A stretch of DNA of 64,000 bases, from NCBI RefSeq assembly GCF_038069655.2, contig NZ_CP150951.2, forward strand, positions 1,116,001 through 1,180,000, given 5' to 3'. The notes under the pieces were generated by a model, which saw only the letters and a list, made by a program, of their open reading frames with translations, searched no databases and had not been told where the DNA came from. Origin of the DNA: Yoonia sp. BS5-3 (lineage in GTDB: Bacteria > Pseudomonadota > Alphaproteobacteria > Rhodobacterales > Rhodobacteraceae). Of the stretch, positions 35,680 to 44,100 are shown in pieces (positions within the stretch are counted from its first letter, which is position 1; every line of letters starts with the position of its first letter). The position numbers and the translations under genes are program-made.

Positions 35680-35754
35680 GTTATATAGGTAAGTATTACT
35701 GACTTAAATTCAAGACCCGCGTCTGAACGTTCATCAACCTTTACCACAAACGAA

Positions 35755-35784
35755 AACGGGCGCTGACCCGCGTCAGCGCCCGTT
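35755..35784 (-). terminator. intrinsic terminator of the RutR-controlled operon
   Basis: A perfect 13-bp stem (AACGGGCGCTGAC / GTCAGCGCCCGTT) with a 4-base loop lies 21 bp beyond the stop of the substrate-binding gene. On the minus strand it is followed by TTTTCGTTTG. It is the strongest intrinsic terminator in the window and marks the 3' end of the nine-gene operon. Confidence 0.85.
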
Positions 35785-35805
35785 CTTGGGTCTATAGAAC
35801 CTGTT

Positions 35806-36798
35806 TTAGTTCAGCGCTTGATCCGTGATCACGCTGGTCCACGCGCCTTCGGGCTGCGCTGTAATCACCGGATCAGACCCGCCCGCCAGCAGCGTATCAA
35901 CGGTGCGCTGGAAATCAGCTTCGGCCAGTGAACCGTCAGATCCTGCCGTCAGTTTAGCAATCTCGCCCATCATGCGGATCTGTGCGGCCTCGGACTGGGC
36001 GCCAGTTTCATCATATTCAATGATGATCCCTGCGGCCTCTTCTGGGTTTTCCTCGGCCCATTTCCAGCCTTCCATCGACGCGCGCACAAAGCGAACCATC
36101 TTGTCGACGAACACCGGATCTTCCAGGTTTTCCTCAAGCGCATAGATGCCGTCTTCCAATGTCGCAACACCCTGGTCTTCGTATTTAAAGGTGATCAGCT
36201 CGTCCTCAGAGACACCTGCATCCAGTACCTGACCATATTCATTGTAAGTCATGGTTGAGATGCAATCAGCCTGGCGCTGCAACAGCGGGTCGACGTTGAA
36301 GCCCTGTTTCAGAACAGTCACGCCCTCTTCCCCGCCATCCGTTGGAATGCCCACCTGGCTCATCCACGACAGGAACGGATATTCATTGCCGAAGAACCAA
36401 ACGCCGATGGTCTTGCCGCGGAAATCCTCGACAGTCTCAATCCCGGTGTCTTTCCAGCAGGTCAGCATCAGACCAGAGGTCTTGAACGGCTGGGCGATAT
36501 TGACCACAGGCAGACCCTTTTCGCGGGCGGCCAATGCCGAAGGCATCCAGTTCAGCATCACATCCGCACCACCACCGGCAAGCACTTGGGGCGGGGCAAT
36601 ATCAGGGCCACCGGGCAGGATGGTGACGTTCAGCCCTTCTGCCTCATAGAACCCTTGATCCAGCGCTACATAGTAGCCCGCGAACTGGGCTTGCGTGACC
36701 CATTGCAGCTGCAGTGTCACATCATTGGCATGGCCATCGGCTTGCGCCATCCCACCCAAACCGGTGGCAAGTGCCGCCGCTAACATTAACTTTTTCAT
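35806..36798 (-). CDS. ABC transporter substrate-binding protein, NMT1/THI5-like
   Basis: A 330-residue periplasmic protein with signal peptide MKKLMLAAALATGLGGMAQA. NMT1/THI5-like features: VTLQLQWVTQAQFAGYYVALDQGFYEAEGLNVTILPGG, then DFRGKTIGVWFFGNEYPFLSWM. Relatives bind pyrimidine-like or related nitrogenous ligands. Its operon encodes dihydropyrimidinase and an N-carbamoyl amide hydrolase and is preceded by a RutR box, so a pyrimidine, dihydropyrimidine or hydantoin ligand is inferred. It is the last gene before the terminator. Confidence 0.87.
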   Translation of the reverse strand: MKKLMLAAALATGLGGMAQADGHANDVTLQLQWVTQAQFAGYYVALDQGFYEAEGLNVTILPGGPDIAPPQVLAGGGADVMLNWMPSALAAREKGLPVVNIAQPFKTSGLMLTCWKDTGIETVEDFRGKTIGVWFFGNEYPFLSWMSQVGIPTDGGEEGVTVLKQGFNVDPLLQRQADCISTMTYNEYGQVLDAGVSEDELITFKYEDQGVATLEDGIYALEENLEDPVFVDKMVRFVRASMEGWKWAEENPEEAAGIIIEYDETGAQSEAAQIRMMGEIAKLTAGSDGSLAEADFQRTVDTLLAGGSDPVITAQPEGAWTSVITDQALN

Positions 36799-36842
36799 TT
36801 TTGACCTCCAAGTCAGTTACACCCTCGTCCCGGGGCTTTTGG

Positions 36843-37694
36843 TTATTTGCGTTGCGATGGGTGCCAAAAGGTCACCCGCCCCTCAATCCATGCCATCAAT
36901 CCGTAGAATGCACTGCCAGCCAGTGCGGCGACGACAATCTCGGCCCAGACCATATCAAGCGCAAGCTGCCCGACGCTGGTCGATATCCGAAAGCCCATGC
37001 CCACAGTGGGAGAGCCGAAAAATTCAGCAACAATCGCCCCGATCAGCGCCAAAGTTGTCGCGATCTTAAGTCCATTGAAAATGAATGGCATCGCGGCGGG
37101 CAGGCGCAGTTTGAACAGCGTTGGCCAATAGCCCGCCCCATAGGTGCGCATCAGGTCCCGTTGCATTGCAGTCGTGTCCCGTAGCCCGGCCACGGTGTTC
37201 ACCAGGATCGGGAAAAACACCATCACAGCGACAACGGCCGCCTTGGATTCCCAATCACTGCCGAGCCATTTCACGAAAATTGGTGCGGTACCTACGATAG
37301 GCAACGCGGCCATAAATCCGCCAACGGGCAGAATGCCGCGGGTTAAAAAGTCAGACCTGTCCGCGATGATCGCCACGACAAAGGCCGCAAAGGCCCCGAT
37401 GACGTAGCCGGTCATCGCCCCCTTGATGATGGTCTGTTCAAAATCCACCCAGAGCGTTGGCAGCTCTCGCGCGAACCGGCTGGCAATGGCCGTGGGCGCG
37501 GGCAGGATGATGGGGCTGATCTCAAGCAAGCGCACCAGCAATTCCCACATGATCAGCAGGGTCAGACCAAAGATCGCAGGGACCAATAGCTGCACTGCGC
37601 GGGTTTTTGCAGCCGGGCTGGCCGCAAGCCGGGCGTTGATGAACCACCCCGTTCCCCAAACGGCCAATGCGCTGATGATCGCTGTTCCGGTCAT
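36843..37694 (-). CDS. ABC transporter permease (nitrate/taurine/pyrimidine type)
   Basis: A 283-residue BPD_transp_1 permease with about six membrane segments. The coupling loop is RTYGAGYWPTLFKLRLPAAMPFIFNGLKIA. The ATG at 37694 overlaps the stop of the other permease (ATGA). With its neighbour it forms a heterodimeric channel of the SsuC/TauC/ThiX type. Confidence 0.88.
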   Translation of the reverse strand: MTGTAIISALAVWGTGWFINARLAASPAAKTRAVQLLVPAIFGLTLLIMWELLVRLLEISPIILPAPTAIASRFARELPTLWVDFEQTIIKGAMTGYVIGAFAAFVVAIIADRSDFLTRGILPVGGFMAALPIVGTAPIFVKWLGSDWESKAAVVAVMVFFPILVNTVAGLRDTTAMQRDLMRTYGAGYWPTLFKLRLPAAMPFIFNGLKIATTLALIGAIVAEFFGSPTVGMGFRISTSVGQLALDMVWAEIVVAALAGSAFYGLMAWIEGRVTFWHPSQRK

Positions 37695-38611
37695 GCGGCT
37701 TGCATCCCCATCCGGCGGAGCGTTAGCCGCTCCAACAAGCTGAACAATCCGACCAAAGCCGCCGCCGTGATGGCTGCGGCAAACAAGGCCGCCCAGGTCA
37801 CCATCGGCTGCCCATATTGATCCCCGACCAACATCCGCGCACCAAAGCCCGCACGGGCACCTGTTGGCAGCTCAGCCACAATCGCCCCAACAAGCGAGGC
37901 GGATATCCCGATCTTCAACGAAGCAAACAGATAAGGGACCGAAGCAGGCAAACGCAGCTTCCAAAACCCCTGCGCCGCACTGGCGTGATAGGTGCGCAGC
38001 AGGTCCAACTGCATCCCATCAGGACTACGTAGCCCTTTGACCATGCCGACAACTACGGGAAAGAAGCTCAGATAAGCGCTGATAATCGCCTTGGGCAGCA
38101 GGCCTTGGATGCCGATGGACCCGAGCATCACGATGATCATCGGGGCGAGCGCCAGAATAGGGATGGTCTGGCTGGCAATGGCCCAAGGCATCACACTCAT
38201 ATCCATGGCGCGATTATAGACAATGCCCACAGCTAACAGGATGCCTAGCGACGTCCCAATCGCAAAACCCAGTAGTGTTGCCGAAAGCGTCACCCAGCCA
38301 TGATAGACCAGTGACCGGCGCGATGTGACGTTCTGCAAGACAATCGTCTTCCACATCTCAGCGCCGACTTGATGGGGCGACGGCAGGCGGGGGCGCTCCA
38401 ACGTATAGGTCATGCCAAACAGATGGGTATTGCGCAGGGCGAGTCCGATACCCGACATCTCTTGCCGCGCGGCGGGCGTGTCGGGGCTGACGGTGATGTC
38501 CTGACGCTGGGCCAAATCTGCGGTCAGATGCATGTTCATTGGCACCACAGCGACGATCCAGGACACAAGGATCGCACCGACCACTGTCAGGACAGGCAGC
38601 ACAGACTTCAT
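37691..38611 (-). CDS. ABC transporter permease (nitrate/taurine/pyrimidine type)
   Basis: About 306 residues. The ATG at 38611 forms an ATGA overlap with the GNAT stop and gives MKSVLPVLTVVGAILVSWIV; a GTG at 38620 would add three residues. It has a long periplasmic loop after the first segment (residues about 25-90), then five membrane segments and the coupling loop RTYHASAAQGFWKLRLPASVPYLFASLKIG. Together with the permease at 36843 it forms the importer channel. Confidence 0.86.
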   Translation of the reverse strand: MKSVLPVLTVVGAILVSWIVAVVPMNMHLTADLAQRQDITVSPDTPAARQEMSGIGLALRNTHLFGMTYTLERPRLPSPHQVGAEMWKTIVLQNVTSRRSLVYHGWVTLSATLLGFAIGTSLGILLAVGIVYNRAMDMSVMPWAIASQTIPILALAPMIIVMLGSIGIQGLLPKAIISAYLSFFPVVVGMVKGLRSPDGMQLDLLRTYHASAAQGFWKLRLPASVPYLFASLKIGISASLVGAIVAELPTGARAGFGARMLVGDQYGQPMVTWAALFAAAITAAALVGLFSLLERLTLRRMGMQAA

Positions 38612-39039
38612 GCGCGCCACTCCATCTTGATTTCAACGACACCATCTTCGCCGCACCAAGGCTCACCCACTTGTTGAAACCCTTCGCGAGCGTAAAACGC
38701 ATGCGCGCGCTTATTTGGCAAATGTGTATGTAGCTGAAGGCGTGGGCGGCCCTGCTTGGCCTGCGTGAGCAATCGGGCGCCAAGCCCGGCGCCAGGTTGG
38801 CCCACATAAAACCCCCATATGTGGTTTTCTTCTGGATCGAGCGATAGATACCCCAGGACTGGGTCGCCAATCACGTAAGCCTCGCGGGTTGGCAAACCCT
38901 CGGTCAGCAGCGTTTCAAGATCCGCGCGCGTTATGCTGCGCGGCATCCATGTGGTGTTGTCAATCCAAGCATCCACGATCCCTGCACAAGCCGGACCGTC
39001 TTGCGCTGTTGCCCGGCGAATTGGGGCCACGTTAATCAT
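38608..39039 (-). CDS. GNAT-family N-acetyltransferase
   Basis: A 143-residue acetyltransferase. The ATG at 39039 overlaps the ATPase gene by 8 bp and gives MINVAPIRRATAQDGPACAGIV. Acetyl-CoA motif: FYVGQPGAGLGARLLTQAKQ, then NKRAHAFYAREGFQQVG, the usual GNAT C-terminal strand pattern. Placing a GNAT between ATPase and permease genes repeats the layout of the dipeptide operon at 26588. The substrate is unknown; amino or carbamoyl breakdown products are possible. Confidence 0.83.
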   Translation of the reverse strand: MINVAPIRRATAQDGPACAGIVDAWIDNTTWMPRSITRADLETLLTEGLPTREAYVIGDPVLGYLSLDPEENHIWGFYVGQPGAGLGARLLTQAKQGRPRLQLHTHLPNKRAHAFYAREGFQQVGEPWCGEDGVVEIKMEWRA

Positions 39040-39805
39040 CCACATGCCCCGCGCGCAGCCCGTCGCGGACGCGGTGTGCAATCTCAATGAATTCCTTGCT
39101 GTCCCGAATATCCAGCGGACGCTCTTTGGGCAGTGGGCTGTCGATCACATCCGTGATGCGGCCCGGGCGCGGGGACATGACGACAATCTTGGTCGAGAGA
39201 TAAACAGCCTCGGGGATAGAGTGGGTCACAAAGCCGATGGTCTTTTCGGTGCGCGCCCAAAGCTGCAACAACTGCTCATTCAAGTGATCGCGGACGATCT
39301 CATCAAGCGCACCAAAGGGTTCATCCATCAGCAGGATATCCGCGTCAAAGGCCAGAGCACGCGCTATCGAGGCCCGCTGCTGCATCCCCCCCGACAATTG
39401 CCAAGGAAATTTCTTCTCAAACCCGGCCAAATCGACCAGCTCCAGGACGCGCTTAACCCGTTCAGCCTGATCGCCCTTTGCAAAGCCCATGATTTCAAGT
39501 GGCAGCCGGATATTGCCGCCAATCGTGCGCCATGGATACAGGCCAGCGGCCTGAAACACATAGCCATAAGCACGGGCGCGGCGGGCCTGATCAGGGGTCA
39601 TGCCATTCACGGTCAATTCGCCCCCAGTTGGCGTTTCCAGCCCAGCGATGCAGCGCAGGAACGTGGTCTTACCACAGCCTGAGGGGCCGATAAAACTGAC
39701 GAAGTCGCCTTTGTTAATATCCAAATTTACGCCTTTCAGCGCATGGACTGGCCCGTCATTCGTTTCGAATGTAAGATCGACGTTGGTTGCAATTACCACA
39801 TTCAT
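39032..39805 (-). CDS. ABC transporter ATP-binding protein (SsuB/TauB/ThiZ type)
   Basis: A 257-residue ATPase with Walker A GPSGCGKTT, signature LSGGMQQR, Walker B LLMDEPFGALD and switch H in VTHSIPEA. The ATG at 39805 (MNVVIATNVDLTFE) is preferred; an in-frame TTG at 39838, inside the upstream small gene, would add 11 residues. It powers the two permeases of the same operon. Confidence 0.9.
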   Translation of the reverse strand: MNVVIATNVDLTFETNDGPVHALKGVNLDINKGDFVSFIGPSGCGKTTFLRCIAGLETPTGGELTVNGMTPDQARRARAYGYVFQAAGLYPWRTIGGNIRLPLEIMGFAKGDQAERVKRVLELVDLAGFEKKFPWQLSGGMQQRASIARALAFDADILLMDEPFGALDEIVRDHLNEQLLQLWARTEKTIGFVTHSIPEAVYLSTKIVVMSPRPGRITDVIDSPLPKERPLDIRDSKEFIEIAHRVRDGLRAGHVDD

Positions 39806-39830
39806 GATTTGCGATTCAGCTTCGTAGTGT

Positions 39831-40178
39831 TCATTCAAGACAGCTCACATATGCAGTGGTAGATGCGCGGTCTGTAGCATCCCTAAATCGCGAAAATAGC
39901 ACTGTGATTTCGGAACGGTCCAAACCAGTCCATTCAACCAATTCGGCATACATTTTGTGCGGGTACCCAAGAAGGTTATTCATAGAATTATTGGCTAAGT
40001 GTAGATATTTACCTTGTCGATCCGTTGCGTGTTGTTGAAAAGTAGCACGCGCGTCATCACGCCACATTCCGATCAGTGTGTGAAACACCTTCTCTTGAAT
40101 AAATGGTCCTTCAATCGCTGCATTCACACACCTAGCAACCGAGTCCCATTCTTCCGAAGTTAATTGGAGACTTTTCAT
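39831..40178 (-). CDS. unrecognised 115-residue protein in the RutR operon
   Basis: A small soluble protein starting MKSLQLTSEEWDSVARCVNAAIEG and ending ASTTAYVSCLE. It looks all-alpha, with a central HLANNSMNNLLGYPHKMYAELVEWTGLDRSEITVLFSR region; the last part could be a helix-turn-helix-like pair, but this is weak. Base composition is clearly richer in A and T than hydA and the ATPase gene. The ATG overlaps the hydA stop (TGATG) and the stop is 25 bp before the ATPase ATG, so it is translated with the operon. No family was recognised. Confidence 0.65.
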   Translation of the reverse strand: MKSLQLTSEEWDSVARCVNAAIEGPFIQEKVFHTLIGMWRDDARATFQQHATDRQGKYLHLANNSMNNLLGYPHKMYAELVEWTGLDRSEITVLFSRFRDATDRASTTAYVSCLE

Positions 40179-41632
40179 CAAACGCCCGTCGCCGGAATAC
40201 CCGTCCGCTCAACCGGCCTAGGCGCCGTCAGTTCTTTCCATGTGCTCAGCGCCTTATTCGTGGGCGTATTCCCTTCGCGTTTCACGAAATCGCCGTGCCC
40301 TTCTTCAGTCCGCACCTCCCCGTCGTGGATCGCGACCTTGCCGCGTGTCAGGGTGAAGCGGGGCAGGCCTGTGACCTCCTTGCCTTCAAACACATTGTAG
40401 TCGATGGCCGATTGCTGGCTGTCCGCTGTGATCGTCTTGGATTTCTTCGGATCCCAGACCACCAGATCGGCATCCGCCCCGACCAGCACCGCACCCTTTT
40501 TCGGATAGCAGTTCAAAATCTTCGCGATATTCGTCGAGGTCACAGCGACGAATTCATTCATCGTCAGTCGCCCGGTCATCACGCCGTGGGTCCAGAGCAT
40601 CGGTAGCCGATCCTCTAGCCCGCCGGTCCCGTTCGGGATCTTGGTGAAATCGCCCACGCCATAGCGCTTTTGTTCGGTGCTGAACGCGCAGTGATCGGTC
40701 GCGACAACCGACAGCGTCCCGCTTTGCAGCCCGGCCCAGAGGCTATCCTGATGCTGCTTGTTCCGGAACGGAGGCGACATGACACGGCGGGCGGCGTGAT
40801 CCCAATCTTTGTTGAAATACTCGGATTCATCCAAGGTCAAATGCTGGATCAACGGCTCACCCCAGACGCGTTTACCCTGCATCTTGGCGCGGCGGATTGC
40901 TTCGTGCGCCTCTTCACAAGAGGTATGGACGACATACAAAGGCACGCCCGCCATATCGGCGATCATGATGGCGCGGTTGGTGGCTTCGCCCTCAACCTGG
41001 CTGGGGCGGGAATAGGCGTGGGCCTCGGGGCCGGTGTTACCCTCGGCCAGCAGTTTTGCTGAAAGCTCCGCCACCACATCGCCATTCTCGGCATGGACCA
41101 TCGCGATGCCGCCCAGTTCGGCCAGACGGTTAAAGCTGGAAAACAGCTCATCATCATTGACCATCAGCGCGCCTTTATAGGCGAGGAAGTGCTTGAACGT
41201 GTTGATCCCGCGCTCCTCGATCACGGTTTTCATGTCGTTGAACACCTGCTCGCCCCACCAGGTGACGGCCATGTGGAAAGAATAATCGCAATTGGCGCGG
41301 GTCGATTTGTTGTCCCAGCGTTTGATGGCATCCAGCAGGCTTTCGCCTTGGTTGGGAAGGCAGAAATCCACGACCATCGTGGTGCCACCAGCCAAGGCCG
41401 CACGGGTACCGCTTTCAAAATCATCGCTGGAATAAGTGCCCATAAAAGGCATTTCCAAATGCACATGGGGGTCGATGCCACCGGGCATGACATAGCAGCC
41501 CGTGGCGTCGAGCTGTTCGTCGCCTTTCAGGTCGGGGCCGATTTCGATGATCTTGCCGCCGTCGATCAGGACGTCCGCCTTATAGGTCAGATCGGCGGTG
41601 ACGATTGTGCCGTTTTTGATGACTTTGGTCAT
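40178..41632 (-). CDS. hydA: dihydropyrimidinase (D-hydantoinase)
   Basis: A 484-residue cyclic amidohydrolase that opens dihydrouracil/dihydrothymine or hydantoin rings to N-carbamoyl amino acids. Metal ligands: H57 and H59 (DPHVHLE), carboxylated K153 (FLAYKG), H180 (MVHAENGD), a later His in YVVHTSCEEA and catalytic Asp in VATDHCAF. Length and motifs match bacterial dihydropyrimidinase. Its product is the substrate for the M20 amidohydrolase encoded two genes upstream. It starts four bases after the stop of the small membrane-protein gene. Confidence 0.95.
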   Translation of the reverse strand: MTKVIKNGTIVTADLTYKADVLIDGGKIIEIGPDLKGDEQLDATGCYVMPGGIDPHVHLEMPFMGTYSSDDFESGTRAALAGGTTMVVDFCLPNQGESLLDAIKRWDNKSTRANCDYSFHMAVTWWGEQVFNDMKTVIEERGINTFKHFLAYKGALMVNDDELFSSFNRLAELGGIAMVHAENGDVVAELSAKLLAEGNTGPEAHAYSRPSQVEGEATNRAIMIADMAGVPLYVVHTSCEEAHEAIRRAKMQGKRVWGEPLIQHLTLDESEYFNKDWDHAARRVMSPPFRNKQHQDSLWAGLQSGTLSVVATDHCAFSTEQKRYGVGDFTKIPNGTGGLEDRLPMLWTHGVMTGRLTMNEFVAVTSTNIAKILNCYPKKGAVLVGADADLVVWDPKKSKTITADSQQSAIDYNVFEGKEVTGLPRFTLTRGKVAIHDGEVRTEEGHGDFVKREGNTPTNKALSTWKELTAPRPVERTGIPATGV

Positions 41633-41636
41633 GACT

Positions 41637-41963
41637 TCATTTGTCCTCTACTTTTCGGAAACCAGAAATGGCCCATAGCGACGCCAGTCCCAGTATGAAG
41701 GTTAATATCGGCGGCCCAAACATAAGCCGAAGCAAGCCCGAAACCCTTAGCCAGGTTCGTCTATTCATCTCAGTGACGAGTCGTTCTAGAGCCGCTTGTC
41801 TGGCCTGATCGGCCCCAGCGTCGCCCGTAACTTTTGCTGTTGGCGGTCCTTCTATAAGACGCATGATATCTTTAGAATTTAAATTGGCAGACATTGAGAC
41901 AGTTATCATCCAAATGACACTTAAGACGAGCCAAGTACGAAACAGTCCTCGCCGCCAATTCAC
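41637..41963 (-). CDS. small two-helix membrane protein in the RutR operon
   Basis: A 108-residue protein starting with GTG, whose first bases overlap the stop of the M20 gene (GTGA). One membrane segment lies near residues 8-26 (TWLVLSVIWMITVSMS) and another near 85-100 (ILTFILGLASLWAIS). Between them is a charged domain of about 55 residues with RQAALERLVTEMNRRTW. Its topology, with both ends on the same side, resembles small bacterial inner-membrane anchors of unknown role. No family was recognised. Confidence 0.65.
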   Translation of the reverse strand: MNWRRGLFRTWLVLSVIWMITVSMSANLNSKDIMRLIEGPPTAKVTGDAGADQARQAALERLVTEMNRRTWLRVSGLLRLMFGPPILTFILGLASLWAISGFRKVEDK

Positions 41964-43210
41964 CCCACAATCTCCGCCGTCTCAACCACCGCATGGAACA
42001 GCACATCTGTCCCTGCCGCAGCCCATTCCGGTGAGATCTCTTCCGCCTCATTATGGCTCAGCCCGTCGACGCAGGGGCACATGACCATCGCCGTTGGGTA
42101 GAGATCGTTGATCCAGCAGGCGTCATGCCCCGCGCCGGATACGATATCCATGTGGGAATAGCCCAATCGCTCGGCCGCGTTCCGCACGGCTGCAACACAG
42201 CCCTCATCAAAGGCAGGCGGGTCGAATTGGCCGACGATTTCGGCCTCAAACGTGACGCCGATGTCTTCACACAGCTTGGGAGCGCGCTCCATCAGCTCAG
42301 CCACCATCCCATTCAGCTTATCCAGCAGATGGGTGCGCATATCGACGGTGAAGACCACCTTGCCGGGGATGATGTTCCGGCTGTTGGGGTAGACGTCGAT
42401 ATGGCCGATGGCCCCCACCGCACCCGGTTGGTTCTTCATCGCGATTTCATGCACCAGCTCGGTGATCAGCGCGAGGCCACGGCCGGCATTCTTGCGCATA
42501 TGCATCGGGGTAGAGCCCGTGTGGCTTTCCTTGCCGATCACTGTAATTTCGATCCAGCGCAGGCCCTGACCGTGGGTGACCACGCCAATATCTTTGCCTT
42601 CGGCTTCAAGGATCGGGCCTTGTTCGATATGCAGCTCAAACATGGCATGCATCTTGCGGTCACCGACCTTTTCGGTGCCTTTCCAGCCGATCCGTTCCAG
42701 CTCATCCCCGAAACGCTTGCCCTCGGCATCGACCTTATCCAGCGCCCAGTCCAACGTGTGTTTGCCCGCAAAAACGCCAGAGGCGAGCATGGCCGGGGCG
42801 TAGCGGGTGCCCTCTTCATTGGTCCAGTTGGTGACGACAATCGGATGCTTGGTTTTGATATCCAGATCATTCAGGGTGCGGACGACCTCAAGCCCGCCAA
42901 GCACCCCCAAGACGCCATCATATTTCCCGCCCGTGGGCTGGGTATCAAGGTGCGAGCCCACATAGACCGGCAGCGCATCGGGGTCAGTGCCTTCGCGGCG
43001 GGCGAACATGTTGCCGATCTCATCCACGCCCATGGTCATACCTGCGGCTTCGCACCACCTTTGAAACAAATGGCGGCCTTCGCTGTCTTCGTCAGTCAGA
43101 GTCTGGCGGTTATTACCTCCGGCAATACCGGGGCCGATCTTGGCCATTTCCATCAGGCTATCCCACAGGCGTTCGCCATTGATGCGCAGGTTCTCTCCGG
43201 GGGCGGCCAT
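41960..43210 (-). CDS. M20-family N-carbamoyl-amino-acid hydrolase / beta-ureidopropionase
   Basis: A 416-residue Zn-dependent amidohydrolase of the hydantoinase/carbamoylase group. The ATG at 43210 has AAGGAGA six bases upstream; the longer frame would run into the RutR box. Motifs: VGSHLDTQPTGGKYDGVLGVLGGLE (His and Asp ligands), NEEGTRYAPAM (catalytic and ligand Glu), HIEQGPILE, GxxSHTGSTPM, and a late His in SHNEAEEI. It releases beta-alanine or another amino acid, CO2 and ammonia from the dihydropyrimidinase product. First gene of the operon. Confidence 0.92.
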   Translation of the reverse strand: MAAPGENLRINGERLWDSLMEMAKIGPGIAGGNNRQTLTDEDSEGRHLFQRWCEAAGMTMGVDEIGNMFARREGTDPDALPVYVGSHLDTQPTGGKYDGVLGVLGGLEVVRTLNDLDIKTKHPIVVTNWTNEEGTRYAPAMLASGVFAGKHTLDWALDKVDAEGKRFGDELERIGWKGTEKVGDRKMHAMFELHIEQGPILEAEGKDIGVVTHGQGLRWIEITVIGKESHTGSTPMHMRKNAGRGLALITELVHEIAMKNQPGAVGAIGHIDVYPNSRNIIPGKVVFTVDMRTHLLDKLNGMVAELMERAPKLCEDIGVTFEAEIVGQFDPPAFDEGCVAAVRNAAERLGYSHMDIVSGAGHDACWINDLYPTAMVMCPCVDGLSHNEAEEISPEWAAAGTDVLFHAVVETAEIVG

Positions 43211-43240
43211 CGCTTTCTCCTTCAGCTCGGGCATTCTTGA

Positions 43241-43258
43241 TTTGACCAAGTGGTCAAA
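43241..43258. promoter_or_regulatory. RutR box
   Basis: TTTGACCAAGTGGTCAAA is a perfect match to the known RutR consensus TTGACCA-N2-TGGTCAA, extended by one base on each side. It lies 30 bp before the M20 gene ATG and about 125 bp before the divergent rutR ATG. In E. coli uracil releases RutR from this sequence; the same logic is inferred here, giving pyrimidine-induced expression of the nine-gene operon. Confidence 0.92.
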
Positions 43259-43381
43259 CGGACGCTAACAGAGGGAGGGCACCAGTCAAGTTATCGGCGT
43301 GATTTTAAAGCATGTGCCAATAAAGCCCGCAAATAGACCCAAAAACAGGTGCAAACGCCTGCAAATTAAGCAAAGTTACTT

Positions 43382-43984
43382 ATGGAAAAACCTTTAACCC
43401 GGATTCAGCAACGCAACCAAACCGCGATTTTGTCAGCAGGTCTGGATATCTTTTCACAGTTCGGTTTCCGCGGATCGACCCTGGATCAGATCGCTGATGC
43501 GGCCGGGTTGTCCAAGCCGAATTTGCTGTATTATTTTCCTTCAAAGGACGCGATCCACGAAGTCCTGCTTGCGCGTTTGCTTGAAACCTGGCTCGATCCG
43601 CTTCGGGCGCTTGACGGCAACGGTGATCCAATCGCCGAGATCATGGGATACGCCCAGCGCAAGCTGGCACTTAGCCGCGACTTTCCCCGCGAAAGCCGGC
43701 TTTTTGCCAATGAGATATTACAAGGTGCCCCCCGCATCTTGGACATTTTGCGGACTGAGCTGAAGGATATGGTCGACGAAAAAGCCGCCATTATTCAGGC
43801 ATGGGCAGATGCGGGTAAAATCGCGCAGGTCGATCCACATCATCTGATCTTTTCGGTCTGGGCGCTGACGCAGCATTATGCCGATTTCGATGTGCAGGTG
43901 CGCGCCGTTATGGGGGATCGCGACCCGCATGATGGGGTCGCCGGGTTTTTGAACACGCTTTACGAAAAGCTGCTGCGTCCCTGA
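43382..43984 (+). CDS. rutR: TetR-family regulator RutR
   Basis: A 200-residue regulator with N-terminal HTH (TLDQIADAAGLSKPNLLYYFPSKDAIHEVLL, about 34-65) and the RutR-type C-terminal domain (TWLDPLRALDGNGDPIAEIMGYAQRKLALSRDFPRESRLFANEILQGAP). The blocks SRLFANEI and the WLDPL stretch are characteristic. The perfect RutR box in the divergent region makes the assignment strong. The Shine-Dalgarno in front of the ATG is weak. RutR is a uracil-responsive repressor of pyrimidine breakdown in enterobacteria. Confidence 0.93.
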   Translation: MEKPLTRIQQRNQTAILSAGLDIFSQFGFRGSTLDQIADAAGLSKPNLLYYFPSKDAIHEVLLARLLETWLDPLRALDGNGDPIAEIMGYAQRKLALSRDFPRESRLFANEILQGAPRILDILRTELKDMVDEKAAIIQAWADAGKIAQVDPHHLIFSVWALTQHYADFDVQVRAVMGDRDPHDGVAGFLNTLYEKLLRP

Positions 43985-44003
43985 ATCGGACCGTATGCAT
44001 CGT

Positions 44004-44029
44004 GTACAGATCCCGTACATATGCTGTAC
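44004..44029. repeat. GTAC array with 11-bp period in a convergent intergenic region
   Basis: GTAC at 44004, 44015 and 44026, each followed by A, spaced exactly 11 bp (GTACA-N6 three times). It lies between the rutR stop and the stop of the minus-strand oxidoreductase, so it is downstream of both genes. It matches the spacing of the array at 29610-29635 and also shares the GTACAGAT start. A small RNA promoter, an architectural-protein site or a remnant operator are all possible. Confidence 0.55.
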
Positions 44030-44069
44030 ATACAACGCGGCGGATTGTGGCTGACGACGGCACGGTTAG

Positions 44070-44100
44070 AGCGTTTCGCTTTATCTAAAGATAAAACGCT
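44070..44100 (-). terminator. possible bulged terminator hairpin overlapping the oxidoreductase stop
   Basis: On the minus strand AGCGT-TTTATCT pairs with AGATAAA and ACGCT, with a TTCGC bulge in one arm; the TAG stop is in the loop region. No T-run follows, so termination is uncertain. Confidence 0.35.

Follow-up and report, generated by a model that had tools for sequence, protein, structure and literature searches.

The window analysed here, a 64,000-nucleotide stretch of contig NZ_CP150951.2 of Yoonia sp. BS5-3 (window genome G000; window coordinates are positions in that stretch), carries nine minus-strand open reading frames in the order hydC, U108, hydA, U115, an ATP-binding cassette (ABC) transporter ATPase gene, a GNAT acetyltransferase-like gene, the permease genes permA and permB, and the gene for an NMT1/THI5-like substrate-binding protein (SBP), together with a perfect RutR box, a divergent RutR-type regulator gene and a terminator-like hairpin (Table 1). 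We read this as a RutR-controlled reductive pyrimidine-catabolism operon of a kind common in Rhodobacteraceae and ordinary in itself, from which the genes for the PreT-PreA pair (PreTA) are missing. The PreT-PreA step is most likely performed by sPreA, a PreA relative encoded elsewhere in the genome, and the new point that we infer is this relocated first enzyme free of iron-sulphur (Fe-S) clusters.

Within the window, the RutR box pattern TTGACCANNTGGTCAA is matched exactly at a single place, TTGACCAAGTGGTCAA at 43242-43257, so that the presumed RutR site TTGACCA-N2-TGGTCAA is present; six other window sites lie within three mismatches, each with three. Genome-wide there are two exact matches, where chance would give ~0.015 (14 fixed bases, 4 Mb), and sites with up to two mismatches number 34 versus 21 for a reversed control, so weak single sites are near background and mean little. 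An earlier, sequence-only reading of this locus had described a perfect box at 43241-43258, nine tightly packed minus-strand genes and a terminator with a 13-bp stem at 35755-35784; the box and the frames are there as stated, and the terminator-like hairpin is present with a 15-pair stem. The same reading called the operon complete, which is accurate for the nine genes, the box, the hairpin and the divergent regulator, but not for the first pathway enzyme, which most related loci encode within the cluster and which is missing here. Each listed frame overlaps the next or is separated from it by no more than 4 bp, the one exception being the 44 bp between permB and the SBP gene, and the real starts of some may lie further inside. 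The listed hydC frame starts at a TTG at 43249, within the box; the ATG at 43210, preceded by AAGGAG, is the likelier start and places the end of the box 32 bp upstream, a position that could suit repressor action. Stem length alone distinguishes the hairpin, because a scan of all hairpin sizes found 8 such sites compared with 8.6 in shuffled sequence.

Table 1 Features of the operon and its surroundings, in window coordinates.
Feature	Position	Strand	Evidence
RutR-type TetR regulator, divergent from the operon	43382..43984	+	PF08362, 159.6 bits; E. coli RutR 3loc, E 2.7e-57
Gap between rutR and gfo, 100 bp, place of the inferred preT-preA loss	43985..44084		preT-preA there in the syntenic locus L023
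Perfect RutR box TTGACCAAGTGGTCAA	43242..43257		pattern scan; also found ahead of hydC in related loci
hydC, probable beta-ureidopropionase, an M20 amidase of the hydantoinase/carbamoylase family	41960..43210	-	TIGR01879, NF006769
U108, small protein	41637..41963	-	no family match
hydA, dihydropyrimidinase	40178..41632	-	TIGR02033, 597.7 bits (cut-off 393.25)
U115, small orphan protein	39831..40178	-	
ABC transporter ATPase	39032..39838	-	PF00005
GNAT acetyltransferase-like, likely start ATG 39039	38608..39039	-	PF00583
ABC permease A (permA)	37691..38620	-	PF00528
ABC permease B (permB)	36843..37694	-	PF00528
NMT1/THI5-like SBP	35806..36798	-	PF09084, 124.7 bits
Terminator-like hairpin	35753..35786	-	15 pairs (9 G-C), short interrupted T-run

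The protein families fit the combination of import, dihydropyrimidinase and carbamoyl hydrolysis that the sequence-only reading had proposed. HydA is the single match to TIGR02033 above cut-off in the genome, and HydC, which matches TIGR01879 at the family level (381.9 bits, cut-off 204), is a putative beta-ureidopropionase, its best model being NF006769 (688.5 bits, cut-off 452), which is named allantoate amidohydrolase. The best solved relative of the SBP is 3ix1, a binder of a formylaminopyrimidine (E 8.1e-18). No second YcdC-like TetR gene was found in the genome. The regulator contains the C-terminal YcdC-like domain and has E. coli RutR (3loc) as its best solved relative, aligned over residues 10-179; it scores below the NCBIfam RutR equivalog cut-offs (TIGR03613, 235.1 versus 368 bits; NF011584, 212.7 versus 230 bits) and is therefore named RutR-type rather than RutR.

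We compared the operon with 80 related loci, the best 80 of at least 593 confirmed dihydropyrimidinase candidates in GTDB genomes, some of these loci ending at contig edges. In this and the later locus comparisons, the hydC query lacked the first two codons of the likely frame, beginning at 43204 with its first residue set to M; the search for hydC in the sPreA genomes used that stretch unaltered. All 80 contained hydA, 79 hydC, 79 the ATPase, 77 permA, 75 permB, 74 the SBP, 73 RutR, and 66 each PreT and canonical PreA, and the commonest order, PreT-PreA-(RutR divergent)-hydC-hydA-ATPase-permA-permB-SBP, was found in 43 of them. Given that preT and canonical preA are present in 66 of the 80, the operon is best read as serving reductive uracil/thymine breakdown together with an importer. 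A box with at most two mismatches stood upstream of hydC in 61 of the 79 loci with enough upstream sequence (11 had none within four mismatches), compared with 2.8% of random 380-bp windows drawn from these loci, a rate that, like the other random-window rates below, errs high since such windows may contain real sites; this agrees with the earlier proposal that a RutR-type protein controls the reductive-type branch here. In addition, 117 of 120 genomes of the family contained a match to the SBP at E <= 0.001, and in 108 of the 120 (own genome included) the best one had E <= 1e-77 and at least 63% identity. RutR regulons for pyrimidine catabolism have been published for 68 genomes in 13 groups, according to PMC5343134.

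In a syntenic relative (L023), the gene order is ilvD-gfo-PreT-PreA-RutR-hydC. In the window genome, 100 bp stand in place of preT-preA, and no remnants of either gene were found in this rutR-gfo junction or in the closest genome, G441. The sequence-only reading had noted that dihydropyrimidine dehydrogenase (DPD) is not in the window. Nor was canonical PreA found in the 99.99% complete genome, where the best match to the PreA model NF006183 reached 291.7 bits (cut-off 335). That match is sPreA, a protein of 365 amino acids encoded at G000:C1:3544050-3545147, ~2.4 Mb from the operon along the contig, and the idea of a genome devoid of any DPD-type enzyme was accordingly rejected. sPreA has a DHO_dh domain plus a weak Dus match and no Fer4 family, whereas the PreA of the syntenic relative contains Fer4_21, and a CxxC motif was found in none of 28 sPreA sequences. 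In the immediate neighbourhood of sPreA in the window genome (L020), to which the PreT search was limited, no PreT match was present. We also rejected sPreA as the biosynthetic dihydroorotate dehydrogenase (DHODH), since the genome has a separate PyrD-like frame (L016, read as PyrD by eye and by a weak PreA-model match) and sPreA is closer to DPD than to DHODH. One named record that contains sPreA annotates it as a hypothetical protein, and we recognised no description of an sPreA-type enzyme in the open-licence PMC literature.

The closest solved structure to sPreA is pig DPD (169 bits), followed by DHODH (81 bits). The residues aligned to pig N609, E611, N668, S670, C671, N736 and T737 are kept in all 28 sPreA sequences, so that sPreA would carry DPD-type substrate-site residues, with the roles and part of the numbering of the pig residues assumed and C671 fixed by mutant chains. 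A structural model of the sPreA of locus L022 (predicted local distance difference test score 72.7, predicted template modelling score 0.77) had pig DPD chains as its best 39 Foldseek matches, with DHODH afterwards; this model leans towards PreA, as its alignment, made of that one sPreA and 49 canonical PreA sequences, is dominated by the latter. A tree built from 8 canonical PreA sequences and 10 of the 28 sPreA, with the PyrD frame of L016 as outgroup, separated the two groups with support of 91/96 and had long outgroup branches.

The distribution of sPreA is consistent with a replacement of PreTA. Among 394 family genomes, in which sPreA calls had 84-100% identity and canonical PreA was defined by scores above the 335-bit cut-off, sPreA was present in 20 and canonical PreA in 316, and canonical PreA was missing in 14 of the 20 genomes with sPreA versus 64 of the 374 others (Fisher p = 7e-7, uncorrected for kinship). 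The same trend was seen in the 56 genomes of the genus (sPreA in 7, canonical PreA in 44), where canonical PreA was missing in 5 of 7 genomes with sPreA versus 7 of 49 without it (p = 0.003). hydC (E <= 1e-120) was found in 25 of 26 sPreA genomes, and sPreA was the sole PreA-type enzyme in 18 of the 26, 17 of which keep hydC. No intact preT or canonical preA was detected in the fetched hyd stretches of 15 further sPreA-only genomes and of G264, with the limits that the G180 stretch ends soon after hydC, that of G011 shows no rutR and that of G249 gave weak matches only. Furthermore, 4 of 28 loci show sPreA together with the hyd cluster: it occupies the place of preTA beside rutR-hydC in L205, lies upstream of hydC in L208 and L022, and adjoins the SBP gene in L272. 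In L206, sPreA lies near a rutR. The genome of L205 (G318) also encodes canonical PreA elsewhere, and both enzymes likewise occur in G078, G215, G224, G258 and G293, the other family genomes of this kind.

In the sPreA-only genome G342, two PreT pieces in different frames lie near the hyd cluster (L282:6567-7180), probably a relic of preT decay. Beyond the family, the possibility that sPreA is general in Alphaproteobacteria was rejected, as the window genome was the only one among 385 class-wide genomes to encode it (E <= 1e-70), and an exact-pattern scan of viral contigs for an sPreA motif returned none. Plasmid records matching sPreA numbered 47, 46 of them under 60% identity and one at 83.6%. 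The latter, on the Rhizobium plasmid CP021372.1 (L212:12001-13107), is annotated as a hypothetical protein and lies near an ABC importer and a D-amino-acid oxidase gene; its presence suggests horizontal transfer.

Upstream of sPreA in the window genome, a RutR-like box with two mismatches begins 55 bp before the ATG and may overlap a -35 element. Across 28 sPreA upstream regions (26 genomes, one metagenome-assembled genome and one plasmid), boxes with at most two mismatches occurred in 10 and boxes with at most three in 18, 16 of these 18 at -53 to -58, compared with 0.9% and 2.6%, respectively, of random 200-bp windows from the same loci.

Several observations weigh against sPreA as a RutR-controlled replacement of PreTA. 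Canonical PreA is kept in 6 of the 20 family genomes and 2 of the 7 genus genomes that encode sPreA, so that the roles of the two enzymes may differ; neither enzyme is encoded in 64 of the 374 other family genomes, so that PreA may be lost without a substitute; in G281, sPreA occurs without any hydC at E <= 1e-120; and near-copies of sPreA (G397/G398 and G408/G417) enter statistics that are uncorrected for kinship. On the regulatory side, 10 of the 28 sPreA upstream regions have no box within three mismatches, G230, G180 and G215 have a good box at hydC but none at sPreA, and the TTGACT upstream of sPreA may be just a -35 element. Extending this last point, the conserved block could be a promoter with TTGACT as its -35 element and no RutR operator, sPreA then being expressed independently of the RutR-type protein. 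TTGAC is kept where the second half-site is lost, for example in G342, G215, G180, G264 and L022, which indicates that part of the conservation is probably a -35 element, and many second halves read TTGGTAAA rather than TTGGTCAA. By contrast, both halves recur at a fixed spacing in most loci (within three mismatches in 18 of 28), G224 carries TGGTAAA-type halves before both hydC and sPreA, and G011, with no rutR in its fetched hyd locus, has no box at either gene. We consider a promoter without an operator less likely than not; it would touch regulation alone and is compatible with sPreA replacing PreTA enzymatically.

A still less likely explanation is that sPreA belongs to the RutR regulon and acts on another substrate or in another direction, for example on thymine, on a modified pyrimidine, or in the oxidation of dihydrouracil, a reaction performed by DHODH-like fungal dihydrouracil oxidases according to PMC9585004. 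The coexistence with canonical PreA in 8 of 26 sPreA genomes, the absence of hydC from G281 and the lack of a fixed reductase neighbour (found in 2 of 28 loci) would all suit such a role. However, most sPreA genomes have no other PreA-type enzyme and nearly all of those keep hydC, and an oxidase would counteract the hydrolases. The least probable is the idea that uracil reduction was lost, that the operon imports and degrades ligands that are already reduced, dihydrouracil or hydantoins for instance, as the sequence-only reading had raised, and that sPreA has an unrelated role: the loss of preT-preA from the cluster and of canonical PreA from the genome, with hydA, hydC and the importer retained, and the 64 family genomes with neither enzyme would accommodate it, but preT and canonical preA accompany most related loci, a PreA relative preceded by a RutR-like box at -55 is encoded elsewhere in the genome, and sPreA carries DPD-type substrate residues, occurs mostly where canonical PreA is missing and in 4 of 28 loci sits with this very cluster.

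With sPreA as the probable replacement of PreTA, the ABC importer would import pyrimidine bases, for instance uracil or thymine, and uracil would be reduced to dihydrouracil, most likely by sPreA, a PreA relative with a flavin mononucleotide (FMN) domain but without an Fe-S domain or an adjacent PreT gene. HydA, as a member of the dihydropyrimidinase family, would then open the dihydrouracil ring, and HydC, as a family amidase, would remove the carbamoyl group to yield beta-alanine, CO2 and ammonia. E. coli RutR represses at its box and lets go on binding the base; the RutR-type protein would likewise repress at the box upstream of hydC and be released on binding the base.

The FMN of sPreA would receive its electrons from elsewhere, and ferredoxin/flavodoxin-NADP reductase (Fpr; NADP, nicotinamide adenine dinucleotide phosphate) is a candidate from two gene neighbourhoods. 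In pig DPD, electrons pass from NADPH via flavin adenine dinucleotide (FAD) and Fe-S clusters to FMN, as described in PMC7332683. In 2 of 28 loci (L206:874-1743 and L204:9544-10359), the gene directly downstream of sPreA, in the same orientation, is of the ferredoxin-NADP reductase type; no such neighbour was detected in the other 26. These two reductases score 133.7 and 106.5 bits with PRK10926, below its cut-off of 390, ferredoxin-NADP reductase being their best-scoring model. The two sPreA proteins are 87% identical and group together in the tree while the reductases share 48% identity, which implies that the pairing arose twice or that one partner was exchanged. The neighbourhoods give a hint only that an Fpr-type reductase may be the electron partner. 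In its fullest form, the proposal would make sPreA a distinct, undescribed class of Fe-S-free, FMN-only DPD that is mobile between lineages, displaces PreTA in the RutR regulon and is fed by Fpr, a tentative reading that we hold somewhat more likely to fail in part than to stand whole.

The window cluster shares dihydropyrimidinase, carbamoyl hydrolase, importer, RutR-type control and its relatives' gene order with reductive Pyd clusters (PreT-PreA or PydA), but is without preT and canonical preA, in a genome without canonical PreA. It recalls E. coli RutR and the oxidative Rut pathway in the kinship of the regulator (3loc) and the exact match to the box pattern, whereas the genes controlled here belong to the reductive branch and the regulator falls below the RutR cut-offs. 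Class 1B dihydroorotate dehydrogenase, PyrD-PyrK, pairs an FMN enzyme with an FNR-superfamily reductase that supplies its electrons, a layout to which sPreA would be analogous if a reductase feeds its FMN; by contrast, the substrate residues of sPreA are DPD-like, and ferredoxin-NADP reductase is the best-scoring model for both of the neighbouring reductases. Clostridial PydAc, a ferredoxin-dependent DPD, resembles sPreA in having an FMN domain and no FAD/NAD(P)H domain of its own, but it uses reduced ferredoxin, has ferredoxin domains and loses activity without [4Fe-4S] reconstitution, whereas sPreA has no Fe-S domain; the survey in that work (PMC7332683) required a [4Fe-4S] domain and would therefore not list sPreA. 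Plant PYD1, judged from its description rather than its sequence, is also DPD-type without a GltD-like FAD/NAD(P)H domain, and its electron partner is called unidentified in PMC2713857.

In a common catabolic regulon, the box, the importer and the hydrolases would be retained, and the entry enzyme would be swapped for one that is smaller and receives its electrons differently. This makes the electron supply of DPD-type proteins without a GltD-like domain, a gap stated in PMC2713857, testable with few soluble proteins, and the novel class, if true, would indicate the kind of partner that is missing for other such DPDs. In addition, pathway predictions based on the PreA model with its 335-bit cut-off would overlook organisms that rely on sPreA.

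The other perfect box in the genome (L005:8209-8224; G000:C1:330208-330223) stands 69 bp ahead of a deoC-type frame, identified by eye and measured from its listed start, which is followed by an aldehyde dehydrogenase-type frame. Among the loci of 30 of the 104 genomes with a match (own included), a box with at most two mismatches preceded the deoC-type gene in 13, and 11 had none within four mismatches, compared with 3.8% of random 330-bp windows; shared regulation of the breakdown of bases and of deoxyribose would suit growth on deoxynucleosides. No pyrimidine link was noticed among the neighbours of the one-mismatch boxes at C1:2180153 and C1:3526468.

Among the remaining operon genes, neither U108 nor U115 matched a family in Pfam, NCBIfam or PHROGs. 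U115 had no match in the 55 other genus genomes or in the 80 related loci, and its weak plasmid matches are hypothetical proteins of Streptomyces and Tistrella plasmids with 30% and 38% identity. Among relatives, the hydC-hydA junction ranges from 18 to 1424 bp and the hydA-ATPase junction from -26 to 1929 bp, and the closest genome has different small frames there (L269:10216-10713 and L269:12161-12634, no Pfam match); the two junctions resemble places of turnover at which small, unrelated genes are gained and lost inside a tight operon. The GNAT gene, which sits between the ATPase and permease genes, was matched in 11 of the 80 related loci.

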